A stretch of 36,757 bases of DNA from positions 1-36,757 of the forward strand of contig CACNQE010000015.1 in assembly GCA_902622515.1 (NCBI GenBank). The letters run 5' to 3'. Source of the stretch: an uncultured SAR116 cluster alpha proteobacterium (GTDB taxonomy: Bacteria; Pseudomonadota; Alphaproteobacteria; Puniceispirillales; Puniceispirillaceae). Of this stretch, positions 1,186 to 21,427 are shown one piece after another. Positions within the stretch are counted from its first letter, which is position 1. Each line of letters starts with the position of its first letter. Both the position numbers and the translations under genes were made by a program. The notes under the pieces were generated by a model. The model worked only from the letters and a program-made list of their open reading frames with translations. It did no database searches and was not told the DNA's origin.

Positions 1186-1261
1186 GCTGGCATGGCTCAA
1201 TTGGTAGAGCACCCGATTTGTAATCGGGCGGTTGGGAGTTCGAGTCTCTCTGCCAGCACCA
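1186..1261 (+). tRNA. tRNA-Thr (TGT anticodon), integration target
   Basis: This is a complete cloverleaf. Acceptor arms are GCTGGCA and TGCCAGC with A and encoded CCA. The anticodon stem CCCGA/TCGGG encloses TTTGTAA (anticodon TGT), and the T loop is TTCGAGT. Its last 14 bases are repeated at 15650-15663, and 45 bases of its 3' half are repeated with one mismatch at 23013-23057, so the gene is the attachment site of two insertions. The gene stays intact because the elements restore the 3' end. Confidence 0.96.
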
Positions 1262-1316
1262 CTTTCCCATATATTATATAATAAAATCAATTATTTAATT
1301 TAAAGCACTGGATTTC

Positions 1317-2090: not shown

Positions 2091-2285
2091 ATGCACATCC
2101 TTCGCCTTCCCGAAGTCTCACAGGCAACTGGCCTTTCACGATCAACTATTTACCGCCTTGTCCAGGCTAGCGACTTTCCACCGCCCTTAAAACTTACCAC
2201 TCGAACAATCGGCTGGTATTCAACAGATATCGAAACTTGGATTGCCGCACGGGCTGCTACTTCAAAGGATCAGGCTGATGAATAA
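2091..2285 (+). CDS. AlpA-family transcriptional regulator / excisionase-like protein
   Basis: This is a 64-residue winged-helix DNA-binding protein of the MerR-like AlpA family. LRLPEVSQATGLSRSTIYRL forms the helix-turn-helix and TIGWYSTDIETWIAAR is the typical family C-terminal motif. AlpA proteins control integrase or excision genes of P4-like satellites and islands. The ribosome binding site GGAG at 2081-2084 is six bases before the ATG. The gene's end overlaps the start of the primase gene by eight bases, so the two are co-transcribed. A role in excision control of this element is inferred from family and position. Confidence 0.88.
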   Translation: MHILRLPEVSQATGLSRSTIYRLVQASDFPPPLKLTTRTIGWYSTDIETWIAARAATSKDQADE

Positions 2286-2907
2286 AAATTTGCCACCTAA
2301 TCTGGAAATAGCGCACCAATTCGTGCAATTGATTTCATCTGGATGGAGAGAGGTTAGTAATGATGCGTCGATGGAGCTACGTGCTCTTGGAAGTAGAACA
2401 CAATCTCTTCGCTTCAATCCTAAAAAGGAGGAGGAATTAGCAGCTACTTTGGAGGCTGCCGTGCAGTTAAATGCGAGTGGCTCCAATATTCATATCACTG
2501 TTAATCCTGCCGGGCCCTTCACGCCAGACTGCAAAAGACGCGCACTTAAAGACAATAACATTGTTGCTGCAACAGCATCATTTATAGATGCAGACGAGCG
2601 TGGCATCGCAGATAACCTGCCCGATAATGCTCTGGTCAAGCCAGATGTTGCCATCATTACAGGACTGTTGCCTTTCACCCGAGCGCATTTTTATTGGCTT
2701 CTGAAAACGCCAGTCTCAGACCTTGAACGATGGAGGAGGTTTCAGCAAGATCTGGCCGAACGGTACGGCACAGATCCCGCAGTTTGCAACCCATCTCGTG
2801 TCATGCGACTACCCGGTTTCGTGACACACCCAAATGCAGCCAAAATCGAAAGAGGTTATGAATCAGAAATGGTGCAGATCAAAGTTTTTGATGGTGGCTT
2901 GTCGTGA
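2278..2907 (+). CDS. RepB-type DNA primase domain protein
   Basis: This 209-residue protein resembles the RepB-like primase (archaeo-eukaryotic primase fold) of mobilisable plasmids and satellites. Visible marks are the acidic metal-site motif FIDADE, then HFYWLL, then DPAVCNPSRVMRLPGF with the conserved Arg near the end. It would prime replication of the excised element. The start at 2278 is chosen over an upstream in-frame codon because ATG overlaps the alpA stop and follows AAAGGA at a normal distance. The stop overlaps the next gene's GTG by four bases (GTGA), indicating translational coupling with the ATPase. Primase and helicase domains, often fused in satellites, are here separate genes. 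Confidence 0.8.
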   Translation: MNKNLPPNLEIAHQFVQLISSGWREVSNDASMELRALGSRTQSLRFNPKKEEELAATLEAAVQLNASGSNIHITVNPAGPFTPDCKRRALKDNNIVAATASFIDADERGIADNLPDNALVKPDVAIITGLLPFTRAHFYWLLKTPVSDLERWRRFQQDLAERYGTDPAVCNPSRVMRLPGFVTHPNAAKIERGYESEMVQIKVFDGGLS

Positions 2908-4352
2908 TCGAGTTTGAAGATCTTGTAAAGGCCCATGAGGCTTCGCCTGCTTTTGGAACAACTCTTAGGAATTTTCTGTTGGCGCCACCCCAGCAAACGA
3001 GCATACCCACCAAACGTCTTGATATATCAAAAGCAATGGCAGACATTCAGGCTAATGATCGCTGGCACGATAACGCCCTTAGAATGGTTGCTCGATTGGT
3101 TCATGAAGGGCTTACAGATGAGGAGATCCTCGTGAGGGCAGGAGAGTTTCAGTGTGAGGGATACTCTCTTGAGCAGACCATTAATGAGATACAGGTGATG
3201 ATTGATGGAGCCCGTAGAAAGGGATTCGATCAGAAGGCAACCACAGCGACTGAAGAAGCAAATGTAATAAGTCCTTCAAATAGAAAGCCGTTTCTTAGAA
3301 GGCTGTCAGACATTACCCTCGAACCAACCCAGTTTTTAATAGATGGCTTTCTACCGCAGGGTAGCTTATCTATGCTCTTTGGCGATCCTAGTTGCGGTAA
3401 AACCTTTCTAGCAATTGATATTGCAATGTGTATTGCAACTGGCAGCAAATTTCACGGCAAATCAGTTAAAGGAGGTGCAGTCGTTTATATTGCTGGCGAA
3501 GGATATCGCGGAATTACACAACGAAAATGGGCTTGGGCTGCTCACAAGGAAATCTCCATTGAAGCTGCTAATATATATATTTCAGAAACAAGCTTAGACA
3601 TCCCTGATATTTATGCGCAAAAAATGCTAACTTCTGAAATCCATTGCGTACTTGGCAATTTTGGGAAGCCTGATCTGATAGTGATTGATACTCTTGCCAG
3701 GAATTTTGGAGGGAATGATGAGAACTCAACAAGGGATATGGGTGCCTTTATCAAAGCTGTTGATGCCATAAACGCAGAGTTTAATTGCGCAACATTGCTA
3801 GTGCATCACACTGGGCACACTGATAAGTCGAGGGCGCGTGGAGCTATTGCGTTGAAGGCCGCGTTAGACACTGAATATCGACTTTCAAAGAATGATGAGT
3901 TTCTGACCCTCGAGTGCACGAAAGCAAAGGACTTTGAGGAACCAAAAGGCATGAAATTTATGCTGCAATCTATAGAGTTCCAGAAGGAAGAGGATATTTT
4001 TGAGAGTGCAATCATAAAATTGCGTGATGGTGCCTTTGAGAGAAAAAGGCTCACAAAGACTGAAAAAAGATATCTTAGATCATTCTTCGATGCATACGAT
4101 CACATTTACGCCGATAGACAATCTGGCCAAACACTTTCCCTGCACCTAGAAGAGTGGCAGGATTTCTACCTGCCCCGCTCACCTGCAGACAAGCATGAGT
4201 CAAAAATGAAGGATTTCCTCAGATGTCGGACCGCTCTCGTCAACAAAGACGTCCTAACAGTTTTAGACGATATTTACACCTGGACCCCAGTCTCATACCA
4301 GACATGTCCGGGACAAACATCGGACATGTCCGACAAGCATCATGAAAACTGA
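2904..4352 (+). CDS. RepA-like AAA/RecA-fold ATPase (replicative helicase type)
   Basis: This 482-residue protein has a RecA-fold ATPase core. Walker A GDPSCGKT is at residues 160-167, a Walker B strand LIVIDTLAR is near residue 255, and the following strand ends in LLVHHTGH, as in RepA hexameric helicases and AAA_25 proteins. The N-terminal 130 residues are mostly helical, and DRWHDNALRMVARLVHEGL resembles the linker seen in primase-helicase proteins. GTG is the start, overlapping the upstream primase stop. It would unwind the element during replication. The last codons run into a cluster of TGTCCG repeats and a long hairpin that may be the origin it acts on. Confidence 0.82.
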   Translation: MIEFEDLVKAHEASPAFGTTLRNFLLAPPQQTSIPTKRLDISKAMADIQANDRWHDNALRMVARLVHEGLTDEEILVRAGEFQCEGYSLEQTINEIQVMIDGARRKGFDQKATTATEEANVISPSNRKPFLRRLSDITLEPTQFLIDGFLPQGSLSMLFGDPSCGKTFLAIDIAMCIATGSKFHGKSVKGGAVVYIAGEGYRGITQRKWAWAAHKEISIEAANIYISETSLDIPDIYAQKMLTSEIHCVLGNFGKPDLIVIDTLARNFGGNDENSTRDMGAFIKAVDAINAEFNCATLLVHHTGHTDKSRARGAIALKAALDTEYRLSKNDEFLTLECTKAKDFEEPKGMKFMLQSIEFQKEEDIFESAIIKLRDGAFERKRLTKTEKRYLRSFFDAYDHIYADRQSGQTLSLHLEEWQDFYLPRSPADKHESKMKDFLRCRTALVNKDVLTVLDDIYTWTPVSYQTCPGQTSDMSDKHHEN

Positions 4353-4422: not shown

Positions 4423-4755
4423 CTAATCAATAACACCAGCAGCACGTAGCCTAATTTCAATCATTTTCGTCCTTGCCCAGAACTCCCTTGAGATTTTTGC
4501 ATCTTCTTTTCGTTTTAAAATTTTATCTTTTGTATATTTACCATGCTTAGTGTTTGCATTTGCAATCATTGCACGTCCAGCATCTGTTTTAGGGCCTGTA
4601 CTTGCTCCACCATGCAATCGGCAACGACCGTTCTTCTTATTGGCAGGGCGCTGGCAAGCAGTGCCTTTTCGGGTTTTGGCACCGCATCGTTGGCCTGGCC
4701 AATCAGCCCCAAAACGCCATTCAATACCTATTTTTACACTACCTTTTACTATCAT
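4423..4755 (-). CDS. HGGxSTG motif protein
   Basis: This small basic protein of 110 residues has the signature RCGAKTRKGTACQRPA, then GRCRLHGGASTGPKT, seen in many short proteins of alphaproteobacterial phages and islands. The two cysteine positions followed by Cys and His suggest a compact metal-binding module; function is unknown. The C-terminal 50 residues are charged and helical. It is transcribed convergently toward the RepA-like gene. The start ATG at 4755 is the first in frame; a ribosome binding site is not evident. Confidence 0.7.
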   Translation of the reverse strand: MIVKGSVKIGIEWRFGADWPGQRCGAKTRKGTACQRPANKKNGRCRLHGGASTGPKTDAGRAMIANANTKHGKYTKDKILKRKEDAKISREFWARTKMIEIRLRAAGVID

Positions 4756-5537
4756 TAATAAGACGCCGATTACGGGTGTTATTATAACAAATTATAAGGC
4801 TATCCGTAAGGTACAACACATATAGCGTGCAACCGCCGTTACTTGCACCTAAATTATGCAAAGTTATAATGAGTGTTACCTAGTCTTTTGAAAAGAACAA
4901 ACAATCGTTTTACCCAGCTATTCAATTGGTCTATCCACTTAAATACATCGTATTAATCAATTAATATAATACGAACTTTAACTTTGTCTTAAAGATGATA
5001 AAAGTACCCACTTTTTTACCTAGATAAATGACGTTTTAACGAAAATTGGTTGTGGAGGTCGAAATTAATTCTAAAATATGTTAATTTAATAAAAAGGAGA
5101 AATAAGGCTAATGGCCAAGAGTATTTGAATTTTTTCGAGAATGGATTAGGCAGCTTTAGGCGAACCTTCTCCGGAATTAGTACTGTTGCATGATGCAGTA
5201 TCACTTAACCTGTGTTCCATTACATCTAATAAGTGCGTTGCACATAGTCATATTATTTTGAACTCTTCTAAGACTTTAGTTGGCGATATTGACATCACTG
5301 AAAATCTTGATAATTGTTCATTTATCGGATCCCTCACTGTCGACAGGACAAGTCTTAGTCCGGTTCGAAGTTCATGCCGGATGATTGGTCGCGAACCAAA
5401 TACAGCATATGTATTGACGGTTAGTGGGTATTGTGGATAATTGCAGTTAGGTTATGATCCTTTAAAAAATATACAGTTGCACATTCAGTTGTGAAAGACT
5501 TACATAACTTGCGCGAATTTGATACAGGAGCATGGAA
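4756..5537. other. Gene-poor segment of about 780 bp
   Basis: I find no convincing gene here. Open frames of 60-90 codons on both strands lack ribosome binding sites and family motifs. Near 4922-4940 is a stretch resembling the dispersed repeat found at 15741, 16781 and 23116. CGTATTA and TAATACG form a short inverted repeat near 4949-4973. The segment may hold decayed sequence between the replication block and the cargo. Confidence 0.5.
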
Positions 5538-5984
5538 ATGAGACACGCCCAGCAGATTTCGATCGTTAAAATATTGTTTTTAAGTACATTTTTATCGTTA
5601 TCGCCGCTGTCCGCCTTTGGTGAAAATGTCACTCTGAAATTCGAGGACATTTACGACAGGGATGGAAACTTGTCGGAAGTGATTTCAGAAACTGACAAAC
5701 AATGGGTTACAATCGAAGGGTTTATGGCACCAGTTTTGAAAGCGGGTGTGAAATTTTTTGTGCTAACTAAAAAACCGCTAGAGGTATGTCCGTTTTGTGA
5801 ACCTGATGCAGAATGGCCACCTGACATCGTGCCTGTTTTCACGAAAAGGGTTGTTACCGAAGTACCTAACTGGCGAAGGATCGAAGTCACCGGCTTGATG
5901 AGCGACGAGCCTCATATTGACCAAGACACCTCATTTTACAGCAAGTTCAGGTTGCTAAAAAGTAGTTTTACACCAATAAAATAG
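5538..5984 (+). CDS. Exported DUF3299-like protein
   Basis: About 148 residues with an N-terminal signal peptide (hydrophobic ILFLSTFLSLSPLSAFG). The mature part contains VTIEGFMAPVLKAG..FFVLTKK followed by EVCPFCEPDAEWPP, the layout of DUF3299 proteins (a glycine-rich strand, then a cysteine/proline segment). The CPFC pair could bind a metal or form a disulphide. DUF3299 genes are, to my knowledge, often found with DUF2796 and ABC transporter genes of Zrg type, which are present in the same element at 11.4-13.9 kb. ATG at 5538 is preferred to 5532 because AGGAG at 5526-5530 is then seven bases away. The match to the family is approximate. Confidence 0.6.
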   Translation: MRHAQQISIVKILFLSTFLSLSPLSAFGENVTLKFEDIYDRDGNLSEVISETDKQWVTIEGFMAPVLKAGVKFFVLTKKPLEVCPFCEPDAEWPPDIVPVFTKRVVTEVPNWRRIEVTGLMSDEPHIDQDTSFYSKFRLLKSSFTPIK

Positions 5985-5991
5985 TGCTCCT

Positions 5992-6609
5992 TTACTCTAA
6001 GCAAACGCTGTAATCATGTGATCTGATCTCTCTAGGAATTGCGTTGAAAGCAACGCTTATCCTAGTTGTACCCTTGTTAGTGGGGACTTCGTGGTACAGG
6101 TAGCTAGGAAACAGTAAAACGTCTCCTGATTCGGCAGTAGGAATGGTCCACAATTCAGCATTGAATTGGTTCACGACAGACGTTTCAGAGGCATGTGTGA
6201 AGGTAAAGGTGTTGTGCCCTATCTGTCTGTGAAAAACAGTTCTGCTACTCTCGTGTGCCTTTGAAATATAAATTATCCCCGAGATAAAGCTGTTTGCATG
6301 ATTGTGGACATGCTGGTGGCCACCTTTTTCACTAACGTTGCTCCAAATCTCTTTTATTTTCCATTCAAGAACATCACCAAGCAGCAATTCACCAAAATCA
6401 ATTATAATTTGCCGCAATTTTGGTTTTGTAATGGCGAGTAGTTTTTTGGCATCTTTGTCTGCCGGAGATGAATGGAATAGGTTACTAGAATTTTTATTGG
6501 GTGTGTTTGCTTTGCTTAAGGCTAAATCTTTTATTTGATTTAATTCGCCGTCGTCAAAAACCGACTTTATATGCGCTATCGGGGTTGGAAAAAGTTCAAA
6601 AACATCCAT
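5992..6609 (-). CDS. Putative 2-oxoglutarate/Fe(II)-dependent oxygenase (TIGR02466 type)
   Basis: This 205-residue protein has the double-stranded beta-helix features of TIGR02466 oxygenases: FPTPIAHI at the N-terminus, a His-rich strand GHQHVHNHANSFISGIIYI, and near the C-terminus LLFPSYLYHEVPTNKG followed by TRISVAFN. The histidines of HVHNH and of YLYHEV are probable iron ligands, and Arg in TRIS the probable 2-oxoglutarate anchor. The substrate is unknown. ATG at 6609 is chosen because GGAGG lies five bases upstream; a TTG 12 bases further up overlaps that site. It follows the DUF3604 gene in the same direction but a strong terminator intervenes. A second member of the family lies at 10718-11338, so the element carries a pair. 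Confidence 0.8.
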   Translation of the reverse strand: MDVFELFPTPIAHIKSVFDDGELNQIKDLALSKANTPNKNSSNLFHSSPADKDAKKLLAITKPKLRQIIIDFGELLLGDVLEWKIKEIWSNVSEKGGHQHVHNHANSFISGIIYISKAHESSRTVFHRQIGHNTFTFTHASETSVVNQFNAELWTIPTAESGDVLLFPSYLYHEVPTNKGTTRISVAFNAIPREIRSHDYSVCLE

Positions 6610-6619
6610 TTTTTCCTCC

Positions 6620-6650
6620 AAAAAAAAGCCCAGCTAATAATAGCTGGGCT
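6620..6650 (-). terminator. Intrinsic terminator overlapping the next gene's leader
   Basis: On the minus strand AGCCCAGCTA, loop TTAT, TAGCTGGGCT makes a perfect 10-bp stem followed by eight T. It ends the DUF3604 transcript. The T run abuts the GGAGG ribosome binding site of the oxygenase gene that follows, so any transcript of that gene must either read through or start within this hairpin. Confidence 0.85.
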
Positions 6651-6672
6651 CTGCATTTTTTGTCAAATTTTA

Positions 6673-8709
6673 TTACGACTTTAAACTGATGAAAATAGGG
6701 TTAGTGTAGAAGAACACGTCAGCCCAAGCCTCTACGTCAGCATCTAAATACCCATTAATATGTGGTGGGCATGCCGGATCTGTACAAGCTATGTTGTCAC
6801 TCAGATTATCAGGTAGTGGGTTACCATTCATATCACGCTCATTTGGCGTACCCGCAGGGATATTTGAGCCGCGCGACCGGACATAAGAGTTCGTTTCTGC
6901 GACAAAGCTATAAACGAGCCTCTTTACCTCACCCTCGCCAAGTTCATCGCCAGACCATTGCTTTGCAATTTTAGTTGTCTCAGGCGCCATTGGGTCAAAG
7001 TATTTTTCATCTTGCGGCGTGAACTTCTGACCAACTACCCCAGTTATCATGTCGACGTGGATTAGTTTTGGATTGCTCAGCGGAATTGCCTGCCCAATTT
7101 GCAACAAGGATGGGTTGTTGAAGTGATATGGGCTATTATTAGGTTTGTCAGGATCTGTGACCGTGAGGAACACATCAACTTTGTCACCCTTGGAGACCAT
7201 TAGCTCACCACCCATCGGAGCACAAACCCCGTTTGAACAAGCCTTGAATTCCAAATCGGTAACTATGTCTCCTTGTGTCACATATGTATTGCCGCTTCGC
7301 AAGGCGTCCACAACGTCTCTGGCAGGATTATCTAAATTATTGTCAACCACGTAGGTCCAGTTGTGTTGATATTCACCAGGCCAAAAGTCAACAGTTGACT
7401 CATAGTCTAAAGGCCCGAAGGAGCCGCGGCTATGCCAATCCGATGAGCCAAAGAACCAGAACCTCCGACCTTCACTAAGCATTGCGTCCCACAAGGTTCT
7501 TACGCCCGGGCGGGCTAATACAACGCGGCTTATATCATCACACTTTTCGCCCTCGAAACATTGTGTTTCTGGGTTTATTGGATTTCCGTCGAAATCGAGG
7601 CCCGGCTTCGTAATTTCTGCTGCAGAATATGCACCAGTGCCTCCATATGTCCAAAAACCTGCAGTAGGCCTCTTGCCTGCATAGGACCCTCTTGTCCTAA
7701 CAGCTTGGTGACCAGGCTGAGATTCAAAGCCGAAGGCAATGTCTGGGGCAACCTCGTTGTAATCTCTGATATGCTCGACATTAAAACCTTTTGCCCCGTC
7801 AGGCAAGTAGGCTCCCTGACGTTCAACGTGAGCCTCTACAAACATACTTTCCATTGGAGCCTTTTCCTTCATCCAAGCCACGCCAGCAAGACCGCGAACG
7901 TGCTCACCTTTATCGATTGGATTTTTCCCATCAACCAGACTGGAATTATAATCTACGACACCTTGATTATCTGTACGACCCTCCATCATGCCAATAATCA
8001 TTTCATTATGCTCAGATGAAATTTCACAAGTCCAACCTTGCCCGCCGCCTTGGCTCATATCGGCATCACCGCGACCAAAACAGTATTCATAATGGGCCAA
8101 CAGGTCAGCGTTCGGTTCAGCATCATATTGGCCAGTAATAATCGACGTCGAAACATGTTCATGACCAGGAACGCTTTGTTCTAAGCCGAGAAATGCCACT
8201 TTATCTTCATTACCAGGCTGTTCACGCACATCTACGATCTGCGGCAGCATATAGTCTTGCGCCATCTGCCAACGCCACATGTTACGAACTTTTTGAACAA
8301 CTTCTGTCCCGTCGTGGTTTTTGATCGTGAACTCTGTGAACTTTTCATCGCCCTTGAAATCTAATGGATCGCGTGTATTTGACCATAGCCCTGCGGTACC
8401 TCCGCCACCTTTCCTTGTGTGATATAGGAAATCATCTATGTAACAGTCACGCGTGCCGGACCCTGAGTGCCCCACTGAGATGAACCAATCCTGACGGTCG
8501 AGCGATTGTCTAGTCAGTGTTCGCACAGATGTGGTCCCATCTGAACAAACTGTGTGATTGTGGAAGTCACCACTACGATATTCCCCTTGCGGATTTGCAC
8601 TTGTTCCAGCCGAATGCCCATCTGACAACGCTACCGATGAGACTCCAACCGCTAGTGATGTTGATGCGGCAGCGAGCGCAGTCACAAACTGCTTCTTATT
8701 TGAATACAT
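6673..8709 (-). CDS. Exported DUF3604 protein, PHP-like metal-dependent hydrolase
   Basis: This 678-residue protein has an N-terminal signal peptide (hydrophobic stretch to about residue 29). The mature start carries a PHP-type metal motif, GDFHNHTVCSDGT, with His50, His52 and Asp57; WFISVGHSG follows, and much later FFGSSDWHSRGSFG supplies further candidate ligands. DUF3604 proteins are predicted periplasmic phosphoesterase-like or related hydrolases with divalent metal centres, substrate unknown. AGGAGA lies eight bases before the ATG. The gene is divergent from the PpiC/HupE operon across a region with two inverted repeats. DUF3604, PpiC-like and HupE-like genes are, as I recall, neighbours in other marine proteobacteria, which suggests a conserved module. 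Base composition is visibly richer in G+C than the flanking chromosome. Confidence 0.85.
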   Translation of the reverse strand: MYSNKKQFVTALAAASTSLAVGVSSVALSDGHSAGTSANPQGEYRSGDFHNHTVCSDGTTSVRTLTRQSLDRQDWFISVGHSGSGTRDCYIDDFLYHTRKGGGGTAGLWSNTRDPLDFKGDEKFTEFTIKNHDGTEVVQKVRNMWRWQMAQDYMLPQIVDVREQPGNEDKVAFLGLEQSVPGHEHVSTSIITGQYDAEPNADLLAHYEYCFGRGDADMSQGGGQGWTCEISSEHNEMIIGMMEGRTDNQGVVDYNSSLVDGKNPIDKGEHVRGLAGVAWMKEKAPMESMFVEAHVERQGAYLPDGAKGFNVEHIRDYNEVAPDIAFGFESQPGHQAVRTRGSYAGKRPTAGFWTYGGTGAYSAAEITKPGLDFDGNPINPETQCFEGEKCDDISRVVLARPGVRTLWDAMLSEGRRFWFFGSSDWHSRGSFGPLDYESTVDFWPGEYQHNWTYVVDNNLDNPARDVVDALRSGNTYVTQGDIVTDLEFKACSNGVCAPMGGELMVSKGDKVDVFLTVTDPDKPNNSPYHFNNPSLLQIGQAIPLSNPKLIHVDMITGVVGQKFTPQDEKYFDPMAPETTKIAKQWSGDELGEGEVKRLVYSFVAETNSYVRSRGSNIPAGTPNERDMNGNPLPDNLSDNIACTDPACPPHINGYLDADVEAWADVFFYTNPIFISLKS

Positions 8710-8780
8710 TTAATCTATCTCCTTTAAAAAATGGTACTTTTTCTTAATCCTATGGGTTAGCGACCAATTATTACGTTTTT

Positions 8781-8839
8781 ATGACATCCAGAGACGAAAA
8801 TCAGATGTCATGCCTTTTAAAATATTGTTGAAATATTTT
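8781..8839. promoter_or_regulatory. Two inverted repeats in the divergent DUF3604 / PpiC promoter region
   Basis: ATGACATC (8781-8788) and GATGTCAT (8804-8811) are perfect 8-bp arms 15 bp apart. AAAATATT (8819-8826) and AATATTTT (8832-8839) are perfect arms 5 bp apart. Both lie between divergent starts at 8709 and 8881, so they are candidate operators for shared control. The regulator is unknown, and neither clearly matches the candidate Zur site upstream of the DUF2796 gene. Confidence 0.45.
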
Positions 8840-8880
8840 GTTAAAAATGATTTGAAAAAATTCTGTACAATAGTACTTTA

Positions 8881-9735
8881 ATGACGTCTATTTTAGTAAA
8901 GCAAGCGTCGGGGTCCCTTATGCAAAACCTTTTTAAATCTGCGATAGCACAGCCAATTTTTCAGTTTTTTATTATTGCCGCTGTCCTTTACACCGCCATT
9001 TACATGTCAGGCAAACTTTCGGGTGATGAATACAATGTAAACATATCAGATAAGGTTACGAATGATCTTTATTCGCGATACAAATCTGAATATGGTCTTG
9101 CACCTGACGAGGTCACTTTCCGTGCATATCTCGATGATTGGATGCAAGAAGAGATCCTATTCAGAGAGGCCAAAGCTATGGGGTTAGACATTGGCGATGA
9201 GATGATTCGGGAGCGGCTTGTCCGGAAGTTTAAAGACGTTTTACTTGGCGAAATATCCACCGGTGGTTGGGATGAAAAAGATTTACAAAAATGGTTTAAC
9301 GAAAACAGCTCACTTTTCGATGTCCCGCCACTTTTTGATATCGAAGAAATCGCTCTCAATAAGTCAACCTATCAAGCTCAATTCGAAAGCATAGTTTCAG
9401 ACGAATACAAAGCCGTAGATCTTAAAACTCGCAAATTCTATGGAAGATCGCCTGCCAACATCAACCAACTTTTTGGCAAAGATGCAATTAACACCTTGGG
9501 AAATCACGACGAAGGTGGGTGGGTCCTTATCAAAAATGCCGAAAGTTTACATGCTGTTCGGATAACCAAGATCGTCGCGTCACAAAAGTCTAACTTTGAA
9601 GACGTGAGAGTGAGAGCGTCGCAAATTTATAAGGATCAACTGATGAAGGAGCAACTCAACATCAGGCTTTCTGATATCGCAGCGAAATATGAGATTAGTT
9701 TCCCTGAGCAACTAATTCCCACACAAAGGGATTGA
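8881..9735 (+). CDS. Membrane-anchored PpiC/SurA-like peptidyl-prolyl isomerase family protein
   Basis: About 284 residues. One N-terminal membrane segment (PIFQFFIIAAVLYTAIYMSG, about residues 24-43) is followed by a SurA-N-like chaperone helix bundle (SRYKSEYG, DDWMQEEILFREA) and a C-terminal region in the position of a PpiC rotamase domain, though its catalytic motif is poorly conserved. It probably assists folding of an exported partner, perhaps the DUF3604 protein or HupE-like protein. The ATG at 8881 follows a TACAAT box by only about ten bases and lacks a ribosome binding site, so translation may begin leaderless or at ATG 8920. The stop is seven bases before the HupE-like start, giving an operon. 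Confidence 0.75.
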   Translation: MTSILVKQASGSLMQNLFKSAIAQPIFQFFIIAAVLYTAIYMSGKLSGDEYNVNISDKVTNDLYSRYKSEYGLAPDEVTFRAYLDDWMQEEILFREAKAMGLDIGDEMIRERLVRKFKDVLLGEISTGGWDEKDLQKWFNENSSLFDVPPLFDIEEIALNKSTYQAQFESIVSDEYKAVDLKTRKFYGRSPANINQLFGKDAINTLGNHDEGGWVLIKNAESLHAVRITKIVASQKSNFEDVRVRASQIYKDQLMKEQLNIRLSDIAAKYEISFPEQLIPTQRD

Positions 9736-9742
9736 TTGCAAA

Positions 9743-10705
9743 ATGATACGCCGCACATCAACAATACTAATATATTTTACGCTGATGGTTTTTTGCAACG
9801 CGTCATATGGACATGAAACACCAATCGCCACGATCGACATAATCGAGCGCAACGATAACATTTTTTTCGTGCGCAACAACTTCGTTTCACCGACCGAAGA
9901 CTGGGAACCTAAATTTCTCTTGCCAGAACAATGTGTTGCCGTTCGCAACTTCATTAAATGTGAACCACCTGGTCTTGTTGGAAATCTCTCGATAGAACAA
10001 ATTGGAGAGAACTTCTCAGGTGCCGTGATAAGACTGCAGCGCCAAGATCAAAGCCTCAGCGTCTTTACTCTTTCAAATGATAAAAAAAATGTCTTTATTT
10101 CAGAAGATAGTTTTGCAGCGAGACTCCATACCATTCGTGTTTATACGGTTCTAGGCATAGAACATATCCTTATTGGAGTAGACCACCTAGCATTTGTCCT
10201 CGGATTGAGTTTGCTTTTTACAAGGTTGTCTACAGCAGTTAAAACCATAAGTGCCTTTACTATAGCGCACTCAATTACGCTGGGCATTTCAGCGGTTGGT
10301 CATGTGACATTGCCAATCGCGATTGTAGAAGCGTTGATTGCTCTCAGCATCTCTACTGTTGCAGCTGAAAAGCTTCTTCAGTCACGAGGATACGTTCCAT
10401 GGTCTAATGACAAACCCATGATTATTGGATTTATGTTTGGCCTCTTGCATGGATTTGGTTTCGCTTCTGTTTTGAAAGATTTAGGGTTGCCTAAAGATAG
10501 CGCGCTAATGTCTCTATTTTCTTTCAATATCGGTGTGGAGATTGGTCAAATCATTTTTGTTTGTTTGGTTTTTGCATGTTTATTTGGCATGAGAAGGTTT
10601 TTATCTGTTAAATTACATGCATCATCTCAAATTGCGGTGGCTTACTTGATCGGCATATTGGGTTTGTTTTGGGCGATTGAACGTACAGTTGCAATTGTGA
10701 CTTGA
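9743..10705 (+). CDS. HupE/UreJ-family membrane protein
   Basis: This 320-residue protein has a signal peptide, a periplasmic domain of about 110 residues, then six to seven membrane helices of the HupE/UreJ_2 type. Conserved motifs are present: GIEHILIGVDHLAFVLGL, FTIAHSITLG, GFMFGLLHGFGFA and FNIGVEIGQ. Histidines in the first three are the presumed metal-binding residues. HupE and UreJ are thought to move nickel or cobalt; this extended subfamily has no proven substrate and could act on another divalent metal. It is second in an operon with the PpiC-like and oxygenase genes; its ATG is seven bases after the upstream stop. The metal link fits the putative zinc transporter genes on the same element. 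Confidence 0.87.
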   Translation: MIRRTSTILIYFTLMVFCNASYGHETPIATIDIIERNDNIFFVRNNFVSPTEDWEPKFLLPEQCVAVRNFIKCEPPGLVGNLSIEQIGENFSGAVIRLQRQDQSLSVFTLSNDKKNVFISEDSFAARLHTIRVYTVLGIEHILIGVDHLAFVLGLSLLFTRLSTAVKTISAFTIAHSITLGISAVGHVTLPIAIVEALIALSISTVAAEKLLQSRGYVPWSNDKPMIIGFMFGLLHGFGFASVLKDLGLPKDSALMSLFSFNIGVEIGQIIFVCLVFACLFGMRRFLSVKLHASSQIAVAYLIGILGLFWAIERTVAIVT

Positions 10706-10717
10706 TTGGTAAATATA

Positions 10718-11338
10718 ATGGAAAACATCAAACAAAGCTTGTTAACTATTTTCCCAACAGTAATTTCTAACAATTTCATCGAAGATATGGAGGAAGGAAA
10801 CCAACAGATTTGTCAATACATTTTTGAGCTCGAAAATAAAAATAAAAATAGCGTAACAAGAAGCAACATTGGCGGATTCCATTCCATTGGAAATATTCTT
10901 TTCCAAAACACCCCTGCTCTTATCAACTTAAGGAAGAAAGTCTTTGAAAAGCTAGCTGCCATTGACGCTCATTTCTACAAGAAAAAATACTCTTATGCAC
11001 GCACCACGATCGAAAGCTGGGCTAACGTTAATAGGTTTGGAGCTTATAATTCAATCCATACCCACCCCAACTCTCGGTGGTCAGGAGTCTATTATGTCAC
11101 TTCCAACCCTGAAGCTTCTTTGGAACACCCTTTGAGCGGACGTTTTGAATTCATTGATCCACGACCCGCTCAAAGTGTTTCTTACTTCGGTGAAAACGCA
11201 GTTGATAAAAAGTATCTTATCAATCCAGTTGCAGGACAGCTGTTGATTTTTCCAAGTTGGCTCCAGCATCAAGTACACCCCAACTTTGACAATCAACCAA
11301 GAATATCAATTGCATTTAACGTGGCTGGCCTTAAATAG
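10718..11338 (+). CDS. Putative 2-oxoglutarate/Fe(II)-dependent oxygenase (TIGR02466 type), second copy
   Basis: About 206 residues, the third gene of the PpiC-HupE operon. The family core is clear: SWANVNRFGAYNSIHTHPNS, WSGVYYVTSNPEA, FEFIDPRPAQ, then LLIFPSWLQHQVHPNF and RISIAFN. His of HTH and of LQHQV are probable iron ligands and Arg of RISI the cosubstrate anchor. It is a much more typical family member than the copy at 5992-6609; the two are diverged paralogues. ATG at 10718 is preferred over TTG at 10706, which directly follows the HupE stop. The gene converges on the ABC permease gene with an 18-bp gap. Confidence 0.82.
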   Translation: MENIKQSLLTIFPTVISNNFIEDMEEGNQQICQYIFELENKNKNSVTRSNIGGFHSIGNILFQNTPALINLRKKVFEKLAAIDAHFYKKKYSYARTTIESWANVNRFGAYNSIHTHPNSRWSGVYYVTSNPEASLEHPLSGRFEFIDPRPAQSVSYFGENAVDKKYLINPVAGQLLIFPSWLQHQVHPNFDNQPRISIAFNVAGLK

Positions 11339-11356
11339 CCCAAAGCTCGTTATCTC

Positions 11357-12694
11357 TCAGTTTTCCCGTAACCCAGCTACAATGGGTCGCTGGCTTTCTA
11401 TAATCGCTGGGACGAGAATAGCCAAAGAAGTTATGCCTAAAAAACCTCCAATAAGGTGCAATTCTTCCCAAAGAATAACACCCTGCACTCTCAGGCCGAC
11501 CAACTCTGAAACGTAGCCTGAAACGATCCCTATCGAAATAAACCCGACTAGCGTGCCTAAAATTGTGCCGGATATGATTATGGTTGCGCCATACCACCAC
11601 ATAACCGCGAGAACAAACCTTCGCGGGGCTCCTAAAGCCTGCAGCAAAGCGAACCGATGACGAAGTAATTTAGCAAAGACTGATATGCCAAGAATAATAC
11701 TGAGGCTGACAAGAAATTGAGTAATTGTTGATAAAACACTGAAAAGCGCCCGCACATCGCCCAATACAGCATGAAGCCGAGATAAAATATTTCCTGGAAA
11801 AAAGGCCATCAATCCATCGCGATTAAAATCTTCCCTTACGTTGTAGAGATCATAGAGTTTCTTTGTCTTTACAATGACTGCAGACGTGCCAGGAAACGAA
11901 ACAGGATCGAAAGGATGACCAAGTTGCATTTCATTGGGCTTGTCTATATCGTTCCCAATATGACCATCTGGCAAGCCATGAACAACCCAAACAGATTCGA
12001 TAGTAACAAGAATAGCTCTATCCCATGGAGTTCCGGTAACAGGCGCAACCTGCGTTATTTCGATATCATCCACATGCTCGGCCATTGGGTCGTTATCTCG
12101 CTGTTGCCCCCCTGCCAACCCATGACTTGGCTTAATGCTCCGGCCCGCCTCAAGGCCCACACCAACGCCAGCTATGCCGTCCCATAAGCCGTTGAAATAT
12201 ATTATATCCTTTGTGCCGTAAAGATGGTTTAAGAATTCATTCGTAGTTCCAATTATTGGATATCCATTCCAATTGTCTCCAAAAGCTAGGGGCGCAGCCA
12301 TGGTCACATTAGGATGGTTTTTAATTTCATTTAGGGTATTGCCATCCAGTAGATTTGTTTTTAACGGTTGAAGGAAAACCACCTTAAGCATTTGCGTGAT
12401 TTCACTACCCGAAGGCGCAACGATCAGATCAAATTTATTTACAGCGTTAGCTGTTACTTCTCGTACCGCACGCTCTTGTATGATTAGCGCTACGGAAATG
12501 GCAATAGATGTGGCAATCACTACCACAAAAACAATGTTGACTGTGAAGTTTTTAATAAAGATAGACCGTACCACCGCATAAGGCGCGAATCGGAAACTTA
12601 CTGCAAAAGCAACTGCAACCACTGGCAAAACCAGAGATAAAAATATTAAAAAATCTTGCTGATTAGCACTTAATTCTCGCCAAATTTCATACAT
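11357..12694 (-). CDS. ABC transporter permease, FtsX/MacB-like
   Basis: About 445 residues with four predicted membrane helices: a start pair around residues 15-70 (LIFLSLVLPVVAVAFAVSF, IVFVVVIATSIAISVALII), a large periplasmic domain of about 250 residues, then three C-terminal helices of the FtsX fold (FLVSLSIILGISVFAKLLR onward). Such permeases work with an ATPase of LolD/MacB type and usually do not move small ions through a classic channel. With the ATPase and DUF2796 genes upstream it forms a Zrg-like set, known from Vibrio cholerae as a Zur-regulated zinc uptake system. ATG at 12694 is preferred; GTG at 12703 is also possible. It overlaps the ATPase gene end. Confidence 0.82.
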   Translation of the reverse strand: MYEIWRELSANQQDFLIFLSLVLPVVAVAFAVSFRFAPYAVVRSIFIKNFTVNIVFVVVIATSIAISVALIIQERAVREVTANAVNKFDLIVAPSGSEITQMLKVVFLQPLKTNLLDGNTLNEIKNHPNVTMAAPLAFGDNWNGYPIIGTTNEFLNHLYGTKDIIYFNGLWDGIAGVGVGLEAGRSIKPSHGLAGGQQRDNDPMAEHVDDIEITQVAPVTGTPWDRAILVTIESVWVVHGLPDGHIGNDIDKPNEMQLGHPFDPVSFPGTSAVIVKTKKLYDLYNVREDFNRDGLMAFFPGNILSRLHAVLGDVRALFSVLSTITQFLVSLSIILGISVFAKLLRHRFALLQALGAPRRFVLAVMWWYGATIIISGTILGTLVGFISIGIVSGYVSELVGLRVQGVILWEELHLIGGFLGITSLAILVPAIIESQRPIVAGLREN

Positions 12695-13352
12695 CAGTTT
12701 CACGCAGTTGGGTTAAACTCAGATTGTTGATAAACCTCGAAAGGACATCATTATCGTGACTCACTACTACCAGCGTAGTAGAATGATTCTTATGATAAGA
12801 GAACAGACAGTCCATCAAAATCTTTGAATTTCTTCCATCCAAGCTAGCGGTTGGTTCATCGGCTAGAATAATTTTTGGATTATTTACCAAACCCCTCGCC
12901 ATTGATAACCTTTGCTTTTCACCACCAGAAAGCACACTAGCTGTTTTTCTACCCTTTAACGGTACCTTGAAAAGATCGAGAAGCTCTATTGCTCGCTCGT
13001 TGACTGCCTTTTTCGATAAATTTGCGTTGAACGCACTCTGTATGGTGACGTTGCTAAGGGGATCTAATTCATCGAACAAAAATGGACTCTGAAAGATAAA
13101 CCCTATATTTTCCCTACGAAATTTATTTAATTTGTTGTCCGCCATAGTTGTGACATTATGCTCGTCCCAATTAACGAAGCCTTCATTTGGTTTTATCAGT
13201 CCAGATAAACAATAAAGTAAGGTGGTTTTCCCAGAACCTGATGGGCCGGAAATACTGGTTGTCCCTCCATTTTCTACCACCAGTTCGTCAACGCTGACGA
13301 TGACTTCACCGTCAGCGTTCCGAACAACAAGGTCTTTCACATAGCATTTCAA
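12687..13352 (-). CDS. ABC transporter ATP-binding protein, LolD/MacB-like
   Basis: This 221-residue ATPase has Walker A GPSGSGKTTLL, Q-loop FIFQSPFLFDELDPLSNV, signature LSGGEKQRLSMARGL, Walker B IILADEPTASLDG and the switch His in VVVSHDND. It is the partner of the downstream permease, with which it overlaps, and follows the DUF2796 gene by 12 bases. It would power the Zrg-like metal transporter. The start is TTG at 13352 with a weak ribosome binding site; GTG a few codons later is possible. Family is certain; substrate is inferred from gene context. Confidence 0.92.
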   Translation of the reverse strand: MKCYVKDLVVRNADGEVIVSVDELVVENGGTTSISGPSGSGKTTLLYCLSGLIKPNEGFVNWDEHNVTTMADNKLNKFRRENIGFIFQSPFLFDELDPLSNVTIQSAFNANLSKKAVNERAIELLDLFKVPLKGRKTASVLSGGEKQRLSMARGLVNNPKIILADEPTASLDGRNSKILMDCLFSYHKNHSTTLVVVSHDNDVLSRFINNLSLTQLRETDV

Positions 13353-13364
13353 TTTGAGCTCGAA

Positions 13365-13856
13365 CTATTTGAGGTCAACAAACGGACTTTCTTTAGTAAC
13401 TGAATACTCCGACATTCCATTTGCTGTGATCATTTCGATATTAACTTGCGTGAGCGATGGGAAAAATTTGAACAACCCTATTTCAAATGATTCAAAGGAA
13501 CTGGGCGACCCACACTTCATTTCTCCTTCTACCTCGAACTCCATATGCTCGTCATCGATATGCAGCGATCCTTTTTGGGCGGTGACATTGCACCCCGCCT
13601 CGTAATTGAGACTAATAAGCTCCTTATTATTAGTTAGGATATCAGATGCCTCTTTAACCGCATCTTTTTCTGCCGTCGTTTCAGGTTTTTTTTCAAACCC
13701 AACAACATTTTCGCCGGGAATTTCCATGAGGTAATTAATAGTATCGCCCTCGATACTCATTTCAAGAACAGCTTGACCATGCAAGTGATCTTCCTTCGAT
13801 GCGTTTGCCGTGGCTGACAGCACAATCAGCGTTACAAATGTTATTAATTGTCTCAA
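13365..13856 (-). CDS. DUF2796 / ZrgA-like periplasmic metal-binding protein
   Basis: This 163-residue protein has a signal peptide ending near residue 19. Family marks are HLHGQAVLEMSIEGD, then EIPGENVVGFEKKPETTAEKDAV, a typical DUF2796 N-terminal half, and a C-terminal half ending in FFPSLTQVNIEMIT. His24 and His26 at the mature N-terminus and DDEHMEF are possible zinc ligands. ZrgA of Vibrio carries a long His-rich linker in the middle; here it is reduced to a few residues. TTG at 13856 is the start, set by AAGGAG six bases upstream. It leads a three-gene operon with ATPase and permease. A Zur-like operator lies in its promoter. Confidence 0.85.
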   Translation of the reverse strand: MRQLITFVTLIVLSATANASKEDHLHGQAVLEMSIEGDTINYLMEIPGENVVGFEKKPETTAEKDAVKEASDILTNNKELISLNYEAGCNVTAQKGSLHIDDEHMEFEVEGEMKCGSPSSFESFEIGLFKFFPSLTQVNIEMITANGMSEYSVTKESPFVDLK

Positions 13857-13882
13857 AACAAACTCCTTTTAAGTTGAATAAA

Positions 13883-13900
13883 GTAATAATATAACATAAC
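13883..13900 (-). promoter_or_regulatory. Candidate Zur operator in the DUF2796 promoter
   Basis: On the minus strand GTTATGTTATATTATTAC agrees at 15 of 18 positions with the palindromic Zur-type pattern GTAATGTTATAACATTAC as I remember it. It lies 27-44 bases upstream of the TTG start and overlaps a possible promoter (TTGCGT, 16 bp, TTTATT). That position would allow zinc-dependent repression. The region is AT-rich, so chance similarity is possible. Confidence 0.4.
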
Positions 13901-14284
13901 GCAAAAATGTGACATAATTATTACATCAATATAATCTCCTTTTGTCCACAAGTTTACAAAACATTCAAATACAAGATATTATTCATCGCTTGGTTAGCTT
14001 CACTGTAAAATATTAACAACAAACATCAAGCGCTGGCTGGGTGGTCTTGCAATGCAAAAGTTGCCGCACAGAGTGGTAAATTAGAGAAAAGACTGTTTAA
14101 TTTGAAGGATCGTAATAAAGCGGCTTTAACTTTTGATATTCAAATTCAGTGTTTTAAAAGCGAATAAAATAGGTGTGTAAAGGAAAAAAAGCCTAAAAAT
14201 CTTTTTTGAAACTCTCTTATAAAGCTAGGCATATAACTAAGAAACGAACAACCTCATACTGAAATGGAGGGGTGCGAATAACGC
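13901..14284. other. Non-coding stretch between the cargo operon and the integrase module
   Basis: About 385 bp with no supported gene on either strand. A second imperfect dyad near 13907-13926 (ATGTGACATA, then TTATTACAT) lies just upstream of the candidate Zur site. The rest, including an initiator-tRNA-like fragment that follows, looks like a junction between modules. Confidence 0.45.
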
Positions 14285-14336: not shown

Positions 14337-15494
14337 TTAACCAAGTAAGTATGCAGCCCATTTCTCCATAATTTCTTTGCGTTGATCGAGAAAATCTGTC
14401 CGCTCATAAGCCCTGACTACTTTAGATGCTGGACGATGAGCCAAAACCATTTCAGCCACTTCAAGACTTACGCTTTGTGTTTCTGCTATCCATGTTCGAA
14501 GGGTTGATCTAAAACCATGAGGCCTTGCTTCTATCCCTGCCCTTTTCATGATGCTCGACATAGCAGCGTCACTGAGGATGTTGCCTTTGTGATTAGCAAA
14601 AATAAAATCATTGGGCGTTCTATCTTTAGCGATAGTAATGATCCGTTTTGCTTCGTCGGATAGTGGAACCCTAAAATCAGGGGTCTTTCCGGCAGCACCT
14701 TTCATTTTAGCCCCTGGAATTACCCATAAATCTTCCTCAAACTCATCAGCTTCGGCATATCGAACAGGATAAGATCGAACACCATTAAGCATAAGCAGTT
14801 TTAGCGCTAGTCCTGCTTGTGTTGTCTCATCCAAGGATTGGTAATAACTTGGGGCATCTGCCCACAACATTGCAGGAATATTTTGTTTTTGTTGTTTTGA
14901 TTGACCCAGCAAAGCTTTTGCCTTTTCCACAGCACCAATATCAACATCCAACCCCATCGCAGCAGCGTGCTTTATCACAATGTTAAGCCTATGAAGGGCT
15001 TTCTTTGCGGTTTCCCCCTTGCTGTGCCAAATAGGGCTGATGCAGGTTTTTATGTCATGCTGGTTGACTTGCTCTATTGGCATTTTCCCAATCTTTGGCA
15101 GAACATGCAATTCCAGGGGAGAAAACCATCGACCATTCTTTCCACCTCCTTTGAGTTCAGCCTTCTTTGCTTCAAATGCAAGCGTAGCGATCATACTTAT
15201 TGTGTTTGATGATCTGGCATATTCATTTTTAAGCCTTAGCTTTTCATTTATTGGGTCAATATTGGATGCTATTAGGGCTCTGGCATGGTCTGCTTTCTTT
15301 CTGGCAGTTGCCGATCCAACATTATTTAATCCACCAAGCCCAGTTTCTTTTCTGTGACCGAATAACGTATACCGGAAAAACCATTGGCCGCCGCCACCTG
15401 CCCTTTTATGAAGCCAAAGCCCTGCCCCATCATTATATTTGCCCGGGCTACATGATTTTATGAATGCTTGGGAAAGTTTATATCTGGCACCCAT
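14337..15494 (-). CDS. int: P4-type tyrosine integrase (DUF4102 N-terminal domain)
   Basis: This 385-residue tyrosine recombinase has an N-terminal arm-binding domain (about residues 1-90; NDGAGLWLHKRAGGGGQWFF and ETGLGGLNNVGSATARKKAD), a core-binding domain, and a C-terminal catalytic domain. The active-site residues are all present: Arg240 (LMLNGVRSYP), Lys265 (GAKMKG), His326 and Arg329 (RPHGFRS), His353 (LAHRPASKV) and nucleophile Tyr363 (RAYERTD). It would insert and excise the element at the tRNA-Thr 3' end. Two TATCCACCT repeats lie directly upstream of the ATG and the right attachment copy is about 155 bp away. The gene looks functional, unlike the integrase remnant at 22.7 kb. Confidence 0.95.
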   Translation of the reverse strand: MGARYKLSQAFIKSCSPGKYNDGAGLWLHKRAGGGGQWFFRYTLFGHRKETGLGGLNNVGSATARKKADHARALIASNIDPINEKLRLKNEYARSSNTISMIATLAFEAKKAELKGGGKNGRWFSPLELHVLPKIGKMPIEQVNQHDIKTCISPIWHSKGETAKKALHRLNIVIKHAAAMGLDVDIGAVEKAKALLGQSKQQKQNIPAMLWADAPSYYQSLDETTQAGLALKLLMLNGVRSYPVRYAEADEFEEDLWVIPGAKMKGAAGKTPDFRVPLSDEAKRIITIAKDRTPNDFIFANHKGNILSDAAMSSIMKRAGIEARPHGFRSTLRTWIAETQSVSLEVAEMVLAHRPASKVVRAYERTDFLDQRKEIMEKWAAYLLG

Positions 15495-15649: not shown

Positions 15650-15663
15650 CTCTGCCAGCACCA
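15650..15663 (+). repeat. Right attachment site (attR) of the element
   Basis: CTCTGCCAGCACCA is identical to the last 14 bases of tRNA-Thr at 1248-1261, and the bases on both sides differ. CACTGT and ACAGTG (15625-15630, 15642-15647) form an inverted repeat just inside it, possibly integrase core or accessory sites. Confidence 0.85.
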
Positions 15664-15740
15664 TTCTCCCTATCACATCATGTGCTAACACGCTGTAATT
15701 GAAGCTATGCCTAGAATCTCACGTACAACCTGAGACGTCA

Positions 15741-15763
15741 AGTGTATCAATTTGGTCTACCCA
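15741..15763 (+). repeat. Dispersed 23-bp direct repeat, copy 1
   Basis: AGTGTATCAATTTGG followed by TCTACCCA is identical at 15741-15763 and 16781-16803 and has one mismatch at 23116-23138. The first two copies flank a segment of about 1.0 kb that is missing beside the third copy, which suggests the segment was inserted or deleted by recombination between repeats. Confidence 0.75.
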
Positions 15764-16065
15764 GTGGGTTACGACAAACACGACTTCAAAAATACCGTTG
15801 AAGACCCACTTATTGTTGTTGTTATTGAGTTTTGTTGTCGTCTCTAAAGTCTAACTAAAGATTAAATGGCTGGGGTGTCTGATGTTATCAAAAGAAGGGG
15901 TTTAGAATGCCTATTGCTGACTCATACAGAGTCACTGAAAGGGTGGTGGAGATATGTGGACTACCAAAGAGGGTCTTAAGAGGCGCTGGTTAGTCTTATT
16001 TGGGATTGTTCTTTCTCAGTTTTTTGTCACTTAAATTGATACAAGTGACTTTTGGTAGGAGTAAA
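15764..16065. other. Stretch without a supported gene
   Basis: About 300 bp with only very short open frames. One of 28 codons from ATG 15907 and one of 26 codons from ATG 15954 overlap in different frames; neither can be supported. Confidence 0.4.
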
Positions 16066-16146
16066 ATGCTAAGAATAACGTGGCTGTTTGTCGCATTGTT
16101 TTTAATAGTAATTTGGAATACTTCTAAATTAGGACAAAGTCATTAG
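16066..16146 (+). CDS. Possible small membrane protein (26 residues)
   Basis: ATG at 16066 follows AGGAG (16057-16061) at a short but usable distance and opens a 26-codon frame. The product begins MLRITWLFVALFLIVIW, one membrane-length hydrophobic helix, with a short polar tail. It is too short for homology. The ribosome binding site and hydrophobicity favour it, but chance is possible in this AT-rich stretch. Confidence 0.3.
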   Translation: MLRITWLFVALFLIVIWNTSKLGQSH

Positions 16147-16173
16147 GCATGAAATTGTCCCTGATAGCTATCA

Positions 16174-16247
16174 AAGACCCCACTAGATTTTATCATTGAC
16201 GTTTATTTTACTTATTAAATAAACGATTATCCCACTAGTGGGGTCTT
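16174..16247. repeat. Nested inverted repeat (74 bp)
   Basis: Outer arms AAGACCCCACTAG (16174-16186) and CTAGTGGGGTCTT (16235-16247) are perfect 13-bp complements. Inner arms CGTTTATTT (16200-16208) and AAATAAACG (16217-16225) are perfect 9-bp complements around an 8-nt loop. This could be a strong RNA hairpin at the end of a transcript or a miniature inverted-repeat element. It lies inside the 1.0-kb segment bounded by the 23-bp repeats. Confidence 0.75.
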
Positions 16248-16322
16248 AAACGACTCTGCTGAGGGTTTGGTATCCTCCCTTCCCTCAGTGGAGTTTTTAC
16301 TCCCATTGCATAGGCAAGCCAA

Positions 16323-16628: not shown

Positions 16629-16780
16629 TTTGGTGTCTCTCCTTGTTCAAGATGTTTTTACGATTTAAGGTTCGACTACTATTATACAATTTTAGTGCCG
16701 GTAAAAGGGGCAAGAATGCACCTTAAAAAGAATGGAAATTTCAGTCCATCACAGTATGCAACTAATTATCATCCTCGTCG

Positions 16781-21420: not shown

Positions 21421-21427
21421 CGCTAAC

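Follow-up and report, generated by a model that had tools for sequence, protein, structure and literature searches.

The window analysed here is the whole stretch of 36,757 nucleotides that forms one complete contig (CACNQE010000015.1) of the genome of an uncultured SAR116 cluster alpha proteobacterium. It carries a 14.4 kb island, located at a tRNA-Thr gene and bounded by 21-nt repeats, and the DNA between these repeats encodes a RepB primase and an AAA_25 helicase, a small protein that weakly matches terminase small subunits, nine cargo genes and a tyrosine integrase (Table 1). Within the cargo, the first oxygenase gene (OXY1) and the gene for a PHP-fold hydrolase share one strand, the genes for PpiC, HupE and the second oxygenase (OXY2) run divergently from them with gaps of 7 and 0 nt, and a ZrgA-ATPase-permease set is convergent with these. 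An earlier note on this DNA had read the cargo as a possible mobile zinc-economy module acting as one system, and its open reading frames (ORFs) lie where that note placed them. The HupE/UreJ, PpiC and TIGR02466 oxygenase assignments made there are borne out by profile scores: HupE reaches 155 bits against the gathering score of 24.5 for PF13795, PpiC passes its cut-off and both oxygenases pass the TIGR02466 cut-off of 62.5 bits.

Table 1. Features of the island, with the evidence on which each assignment rests (positions are those of the window).
Feature	Position	Strand	Evidence
Left attachment repeat, 3' end of tRNA-Thr (tRNA 1186-1261)	1248..1268	+	21-nt repeat; junction in G659
RepB-type primase	2242..2907	+	PF16793 25.9 bits (cut-off 24.3)
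AAA_25 replicative helicase/primase-like protein	2904..4352	+	PF13481 126.5 bits; phrog_2850, phrog_906
Small protein, weak similarity to terminase small subunit	4423..4755	-	phrog_9231, E 1.4e-6, 29.3 bits
150-aa protein, signal-like start (by eye), family unproven	5532..5984	+	no family match
OXY1, 2OG-Fe(II) oxygenase, no signal-like start (by eye)	5992..6621	-	PF13759 78.5 bits; TIGR02466 70.9 bits
Putative PHP-fold metallohydrolase, CehA/McbA relative, signal-like start (by eye)	6673..8709	-	sub-threshold profile and fold match
PpiC-type foldase, N-terminal hydrophobic stretch (by eye: membrane-anchored)	8881..9735	+	PF13145 (Rotamase_2/PpiC) 29.1 bits (cut-off 27)
HupE/UreJ_2 permease, short N-terminal ZrgA/anglerase-like domain, putative mature N-terminus His24 (by eye)	9743..10705	+	PF13795
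OXY2, second, more divergent TIGR02466 oxygenase, zero gap after HupE	10706..11338	+	TIGR02466 91.9 bits
FtsX-type permease, Zrg-like set	11357..12703	-	PF02687 24.7 bits (just below cut-off 25.5)
ABC ATPase (LolD/MacB type), Zrg-like set	12687..13352	-	PF00005 102 bits
ZrgA (DUF2796) family protein	13365..13856	-	PF10986 109.6 bits (cut-off 27.4); PDB 7ahw and 8ezw by sequence
Tyrosine integrase	14337..15494	-	PF13356, PF22022, PF00589; phrog_1
Right attachment repeat	15650..15670	+	19 of 21 nt identical to left repeat

A near-identical genome of the same genus, G659, aligns at 99.76% identity to positions 1-1268 of the window and at 99.75% to positions 15650-28679, and lacks exactly the intervening DNA. 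Because of this exact empty site, the island is a recent, precise and site-specific insertion, and together with the tRNA-Thr repeats the site confirms the mobility that had been proposed for the cargo. Within the genus, the PHP gene was found in one of ten genomes, that of the window (completeness is 90% or more in five of the ten). Like phage satellites, the island integrates at a specific site in a tRNA gene. Viral scans with the PHP protein and phage records were unproductive.

A second copy of the module was identified in contig L018, to which positions 5028-14085 of the window align as two blocks, one at 92.1% and the other at 91.9% identity; positions 8722-8915, between the PHP and PpiC genes, are unaligned. 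In L018 a ZnuA gene (9212-10255) directly adjoins the module where the window has the replication genes of the island. No match to the replication and integrase proteins of the island was found in L018 by tblastn, on a contig that stops at the module edge on the integrase side. Past ZnuA, the flank of L018 shares 76.6% identity over 4.8 kb with a different contig of the window's own genome, and neither the module nor ZnuA was seen in 16 kb of that contig. At 92% identity against 76.6% for the flank, the module is more alike than the genomic background and occupies a different place in each of the two genomes, and the cargo has also moved by a route other than this island. The reading of L018 as a transfer between classes was rejected, as the flank is 76.6% identical to the window's genome despite the Cellvibrionales title of the contig; given this resemblance, the label or binning of L018 is doubtful. 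The class of the window's genome, Alphaproteobacteria, was read from genomes of the same class, chiefly G380, in which the DUF3604 protein shares 90% identity with that of Rhizobium sp. N324.

A second element lies in tandem with the island at the same tRNA-Thr (window 15671-23057) and is also present in G659. It carries genes for CopD, a multicopper oxidase, an outer-membrane efflux protein and a CopC/CusF-type protein, and terminates with a 45-nt tRNA-Thr fragment (23013-23057). Two similar stretches of about 220 nt (16994-17215 and 23288-23509) flank the copper genes, are found in relatives too and possibly represent a duplicated edge.

The central part of the cargo recurs elsewhere as a unit. 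When genomes were scanned with nothing but the PHP pair, 23 genome loci emerged. One of these (L018) represents the window's own module, and several of the remaining 22 come from a single genus. PpiC and HupE are present in 21 of these 23 loci and the oxygenase in 20, and the misses are cut contigs: L032 and L037 stop short of PpiC, whereas L031 breaks off 40 bp past HupE. By title the loci are mostly from Burkholderiales, and also from Methylocapsa and Hyphomicrobium. The PHP-PpiC-HupE-oxygenase set is, in summary, a real conserved gene unit, and for these four genes the grouping made in the earlier note is supported; the Zrg genes, considered below, do not share this conservation. A literature search in which few subscription papers were covered found no description of this combination, as the earlier note had supposed, nor of the DUF3604-PpiC-HupE operon described below; the one paper listed for DUF3604 concerns Chlamydia transposons.

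Additional genes accompany the unit. On plasmid L010 the order is NikR, TonB receptor, an unassigned gene, lipoprotein, PHP, a spermidine-synthase-like membrane protein, PpiC, HupE, oxygenase and a PCu(A)C-like protein; such plasmid neighbourhoods are hand-picked examples (3 of 22 PHP records and 5 of 427 HupE records). L010 aside, the spermidine-synthase-like and lipoprotein genes are each found in 18 of the 23 PHP loci and the PCu(A)C-like gene in 12. The spermidine-synthase-like protein of L010 (9119-11728) has 869 residues, with a spermidine-synthase domain and, judged by eye, a long hydrophobic part, and is not present in the window. The PCu(A)C-like proteins of the 12 loci and of L010 (14256-14714) all start with His after the signal-like part (13 of 13), the start being HEYY in 11, HEYF once and HQYY once, and this N-terminal His is a possible second candidate metal site.

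The hydrolase itself had been assigned to DUF3604 with a PHP-type metal site, and only the latter part of this assignment stands. DUF3604 identity was rejected, as no match to PF12228 was found at E<=0.1 with a library that scores 694 bits on a real DUF3604 protein. Against the CehA/McbA profile NF038032 the window protein scores 53.7 bits, short of the cut-off of 80, and all 22 aligned relatives match this profile at E<=0.001; by these scores it would be a relative, not a member, of the CehA/McbA family. A low-confidence structural model of the protein aligns to 3E38 (Z 13.8, rmsd 3.3, 207 residues) and to 2ANU (Z 13.3), and a Foldseek search with the same model gave no match at E<=0.001. Ten residues are invariant in the 22 PHP proteins, namely H10, H12, D17, H41, E137, H143, H145, H294, D384 and H386, numbered from the first aligned residue, and these positions fit what we take to be the His/Asp/Glu ligand pattern of the PHP superfamily. 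The modelled fold and the conserved candidate metal ligands are together those expected of a PHP superfamily protein. Among 398 genomes of the phylum sample the protein was matched in nine, over part of its length in all but the window's genome among the matches listed. On a Pseudoalteromonas plasmid, a distant PHP relative annotated as a phosphoesterase (L013, 27194-28636) has a TonB receptor on either side, along with genes for a sigma factor and FecR; the same plasmid carries a DUF3604-PpiC-HupE operon at a distance of 15 kb.

The link between HupE and PpiC was also found in a search that set out from HupE. PF13795 is matched in 118 of the 398 sampled genomes, above cut-off in 96, and the listed hits that score 120 bits or more, with the window's own gene excluded, amount to 106 HupE_UreJ_2 genes. 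They were examined in 104 regions with flanks reaching about 7 kb per side, some shortened by contig ends. The genes were sorted with a class profile built on 30 HupEs, from PpiC-linked loci together with one short HupE from L013, none of which is among the 106; the class border, a score of 230, was set after the scores had been seen and falls in a gap between 234 and 219. Each of the 29 genes of the window's class has PpiC on its own strand at a distance of no more than 400 bp, and 25 of the 29 have DUF3604 within 2.5 kb on either strand; among the other 77 genes none has PpiC or DUF3604 so placed. No oxygenase, PHP-type or ZrgA gene was found by profiles in the 29 loci. The neighbourhood counts for HupE with PpiC are more than chance, in this sample as in the PHP loci. 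PpiC thus adjoins every sampled HupE of the window's class, yet the operon is undescribed in the literature searched. It offers a concrete genetic handle on the function of exported PHP/DUF3604 hydrolases, and on what HupE/UreJ_2 proteins transport outside hydrogenase and urease.

Given this arrangement, it is conceivable that PpiC and HupE form a maturation unit that folds and metallates the exported PHP or DUF3604 hydrolase, whose substrate (a phosphoester or carbamate, for example) would be unrelated to metal nutrition. The constancy of PpiC beside HupE and the frequency of DUF3604 nearby would agree with this, as would the observation that PHP and DUF3604, mutually unmatched by Pfam models, hold the same place beside PpiC-HupE: such an interchange is expected if PpiC-HupE serves an exported metalloenzyme. 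However, DUF3604 is missing from the 2.5 kb around four of the 29 PpiC-HupE pairs, metal-uptake genes neighbour several PHP-type loci, and HupE/UreJ-2 proteins are described in the main text of PMC12537917 as nickel permeases, which import to the cell and would not obviously metallate a periplasmic enzyme. This explanation is considered rather unlikely.

The modelled structure of HupE suggests metal capture. In the HupE model (297 residues, mean pLDDT 83) some 98 residues make up a front domain, which aligns to ZrgA (8EZW; Z 7.8, rmsd 3.0, 91 residues), to PA4063 (Z 7.1-7.3) and to Ang-1 (9GCE; Z 6.0, rmsd 3.3, 92 residues), and is thus nearer to ZrgA than to Ang-1. Among the 50 structural alignments listed, seven fall within HupE residues 1-98, all of them to ZrgA, PA4063 or Ang-1; Foldseek with the whole model gave no match at E<=0.001. 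A long-class HupE (L142), taken as a positive control, matches 9GCE by sequence at 5.3e-17, and the PpiC-linked HupE of L118 has no sequence match to it. Since neither L118 nor the window protein matches 9GCE in this way, the window HupE belongs to a shorter, PpiC-linked class, other than the published Ang-1. A His follows the signal-like stretch in the window HupE, in most of its listed relatives and in many HupEs of other classes, with cleavage judged by eye; in the alignment of the class, the start was set at the HE motif, so that conservation of His1 there is by construction, and L028 was left out because no such motif could be located in its over-long ORF. According to the main text of PMC12537917, Ang-1 has a Kd of 74 nM for copper and of 220 nM for nickel, and these affinities need not apply to the window's class.

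Two oxygenases accompany the hydrolase and permease in the window. OXY1, which likely starts at an ATG at 6609 as in L018, is 36-40% identical to ten aligned cassette oxygenases and is the counterpart of the oxygenase kept in cassettes elsewhere; OXY2 is 25% identical to OXY1. The window's genome has only two PF13759 oxygenases, both of them here and 4.7 kb apart, which is more than chance. Between the PHP and OXY1 genes (6625-6652) a twelve-pair hairpin with a T tail lies beside a promoter-like site that matches at 11 of 12 positions, and OXY1 may be expressed separately; terminator-like sites overall are not above chance (7 found, 8.4 expected).

The Zrg-like set differs from these genes in its distribution. 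Its ZrgA and ATPase had been recognised correctly, and the permease falls just under its cut-off. ZrgA scores 89.2 bits against the cut-off of 185 for the NCBIfam equivalog NF047873, and the best NCBIfam match of the ATPase is LolD (162.8 bits, cut-off 307.75), with MacB also listed and all matches below cut-off. The DUF3299-like protein of the earlier note was not confirmed: ORF 5532-5984 has no match in Pfam, NCBIfam or PHROGs, none that is credible in PDB and none to PF11736 (DUF3299) at E<=0.1, and its alignment to true DUF3299 is weak (a 19-residue BLASTP match at E 0.023, HHalign probability 1.5).

Across the 398 sampled genomes ZrgA is above cut-off in 66, and it lies within 20 kb of a listed HupE_UreJ_2 in the window's genome only, as judged by eye from two hit lists. 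Among the 23 PHP loci it was found in L018 and in L040 of Malikia spinosa, with a profile built from three sequences; distant ZrgAs may escape this profile and another built from two. As the window's lineage and Malikia are the only ones among the PHP loci in which the Zrg set stands next to the cassette, the Zrg set is a separate one that co-travels with the PHP cassette in the window's lineage. This distribution raises the possibility that the two sets share the island by accident and do unrelated jobs. Nevertheless, both sets adjoin in L040, where ZrgA, ATPase, permease and a true DUF3299 (17790-21791) are convergent with the PHP cassette and a HupE_UreJ gene lies on the other side of ZrgA. 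As the Malikia proteins are very distant from those of the window (38% identity for PHP, 22% for ZrgA), this is a second association of the Zrg set with the cassette, although two lineages are few. The ZrgA-like model of the HupE front domain also speaks against an accidental pairing, the probability of which is placed slightly below even.

The metal need not be zinc. Beside the PHP cassette, L020 has CopC (12228-12695) and HupE_UreJ, L019 has HupE_UreJ, and L034 has a cupredoxin and an FTR1 iron permease (11162-12331); further metal-related neighbours are NikR and a TonB receptor in L010, Zrg genes in the window and L040, and ZnuA in L018. These neighbours fit a metal cassette, not zinc alone, and with nickel, copper and iron genes among them the choice of zinc as the metal is not supported. 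A Zur-like palindrome lies 26 nt upstream of the zrgA ORF, scored with what we presume to be the Zur consensus; with at most one mismatch, this one site, counted on both strands, gives two matches in the window where 1.53 are expected, and the site was rejected as proof of Zur control, being not above chance. Absence of ZnuA from the window's genome was likewise rejected as an argument, as G659 shows two partial ZnuA matches at contig ends; given this split, an assembly gap is the likely cause.

One system under Zur control, in which captured zinc is passed on to the hydrolase, would be consistent with ZrgA on the island, with ZnuA beside the module in L018 and with the full Zrg set beside the Malikia cassette. 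In the accessible text of the papers concerned, Zrg-type operons depend on zinc or Zur in two organisms: the Vibrio parahaemolyticus operon belongs to the Zur regulon, with ZrgA said to contribute to zinc acquisition (PMC9817125), and the Pseudomonas aeruginosa operon is zinc-responsive (PMC11481552). The latter, however, has been interpreted as an exporter of the MacB type with links to pyochelin and cobalt, and given that one source reports acquisition and the other export, the direction of transport is disputed. NikR, CopC and FTR1 beside other cassettes also argue against a zinc system, as do the single Zur-like site expected by chance and the behaviour of Ang-1, which is stabilised by copper and nickel and slightly destabilised by zinc (PMC12537917, main text). 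A zinc system of this kind is regarded as improbable, and the one-system, zinc-only reading exceeds the evidence.

It is suggested, with about an even chance of being correct, that the island carries a portable metal-scavenging cassette together with a separate Zrg set of the zinc-starvation type. In this cassette the HupE front domain, with its N-terminal His1, would capture a transition metal in the periplasm and pass it to the membrane part of HupE, as its fold and context suggest. The periplasmic PHP hydrolase may release metal or a metal-binding organic compound, or may itself receive metal; PpiC would aid the folding of this exported enzyme or of the HupE front domain, and the cytoplasmic oxygenase may modify a partner. 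ZrgA and its ABC transporter would be a separate zinc-starvation-type system that co-travels with the cassette in the window's lineage. The metal-related genes are carried here by a satellite-like island that inserted recently, and this arrangement suggests that metal scavenging is a portable trait.

Several observations weigh against this metal-scavenging cassette. The structure prediction that had been proposed for the hydrolase gave a PHP-fold match from a model of low confidence (mean pLDDT 54). The cassette is missing around distant relatives of the PHP protein, at 23-31% identity: no PpiC or HupE was found by tblastn within about 1.5 kb per side in L002-L009 or about 6 kb per side on plasmids L011 and L012. 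An oxygenase was found by profile in none of the 106 sampled HupE loci, and therefore belongs to the PHP-type variant only. The ZrgA-fold matches of the HupE front domain are all under Z 8, and by sequence HupE matches neither 9GCE nor the ZrgA structures, either as a single protein or as a 21-row profile. The metal-related neighbours were chosen by eye from the flanks of twelve loci and others, with no chance baseline, and the chance-level Zur-like site adds nothing in favour. A wider proposal would make PHP/DUF3604-PpiC-HupE an envelope system, widespread and so far undescribed, that is based on an additional metal-catching class of HupE and in which the hydrolase, the His1 ZrgA-fold permease and the foldase strip and import metal from organic complexes, the cytoplasmic oxygenase finishes the ligand thus freed and phage-satellite-like islands spread the genes; this is considered unlikely.

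Comparison with known systems places the parts of the island as follows. With phage satellites and tRNA-borne integrative elements the island shares a tyrosine integrase, a tRNA attachment site, an exact empty site, a primase, a helicase and a weak match to a terminase small subunit. It differs from them in its metal-related cargo, and no capsid-hijacking gene or helper phage is shown. The ZrgABCDE and PA4063-PA4066 operons, in the accessible text of PMC9817125 and PMC8561739, likewise have a PF10986 protein, a LolD/MacB-type ATPase and an FtsX-type permease in one gene run. In the window, however, ZrgA is below the NCBIfam equivalog cut-off, there is no proven DUF3299 partner, and oxygenase, PpiC, HupE and PHP genes separate the permease from the DUF3299-like ORF. 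The Ang-1-HupE/UreJ-2 fusion (PMC12537917, PDB 9GCE) resembles the window HupE in joining a PF13795 permease to a front domain outside the cytoplasm, where the mature protein of the window, too, would probably start with His. The window front domain is shorter (about 98 residues in the model, compared with 168 in 9GCE), and the window HupE adjoins PpiC, whereas the main text of PMC12537917, figures aside, contains no word starting with isomerase, oxygenase, PpiC or DUF3604. Finally, the DUF3604-PpiC-HupE operon, seen in five hand-picked plasmid regions and 25 sampled loci, has the same PpiC-HupE pair as the window, in which a CehA/McbA-related PHP protein stands in place of DUF3604 and oxygenases are added.

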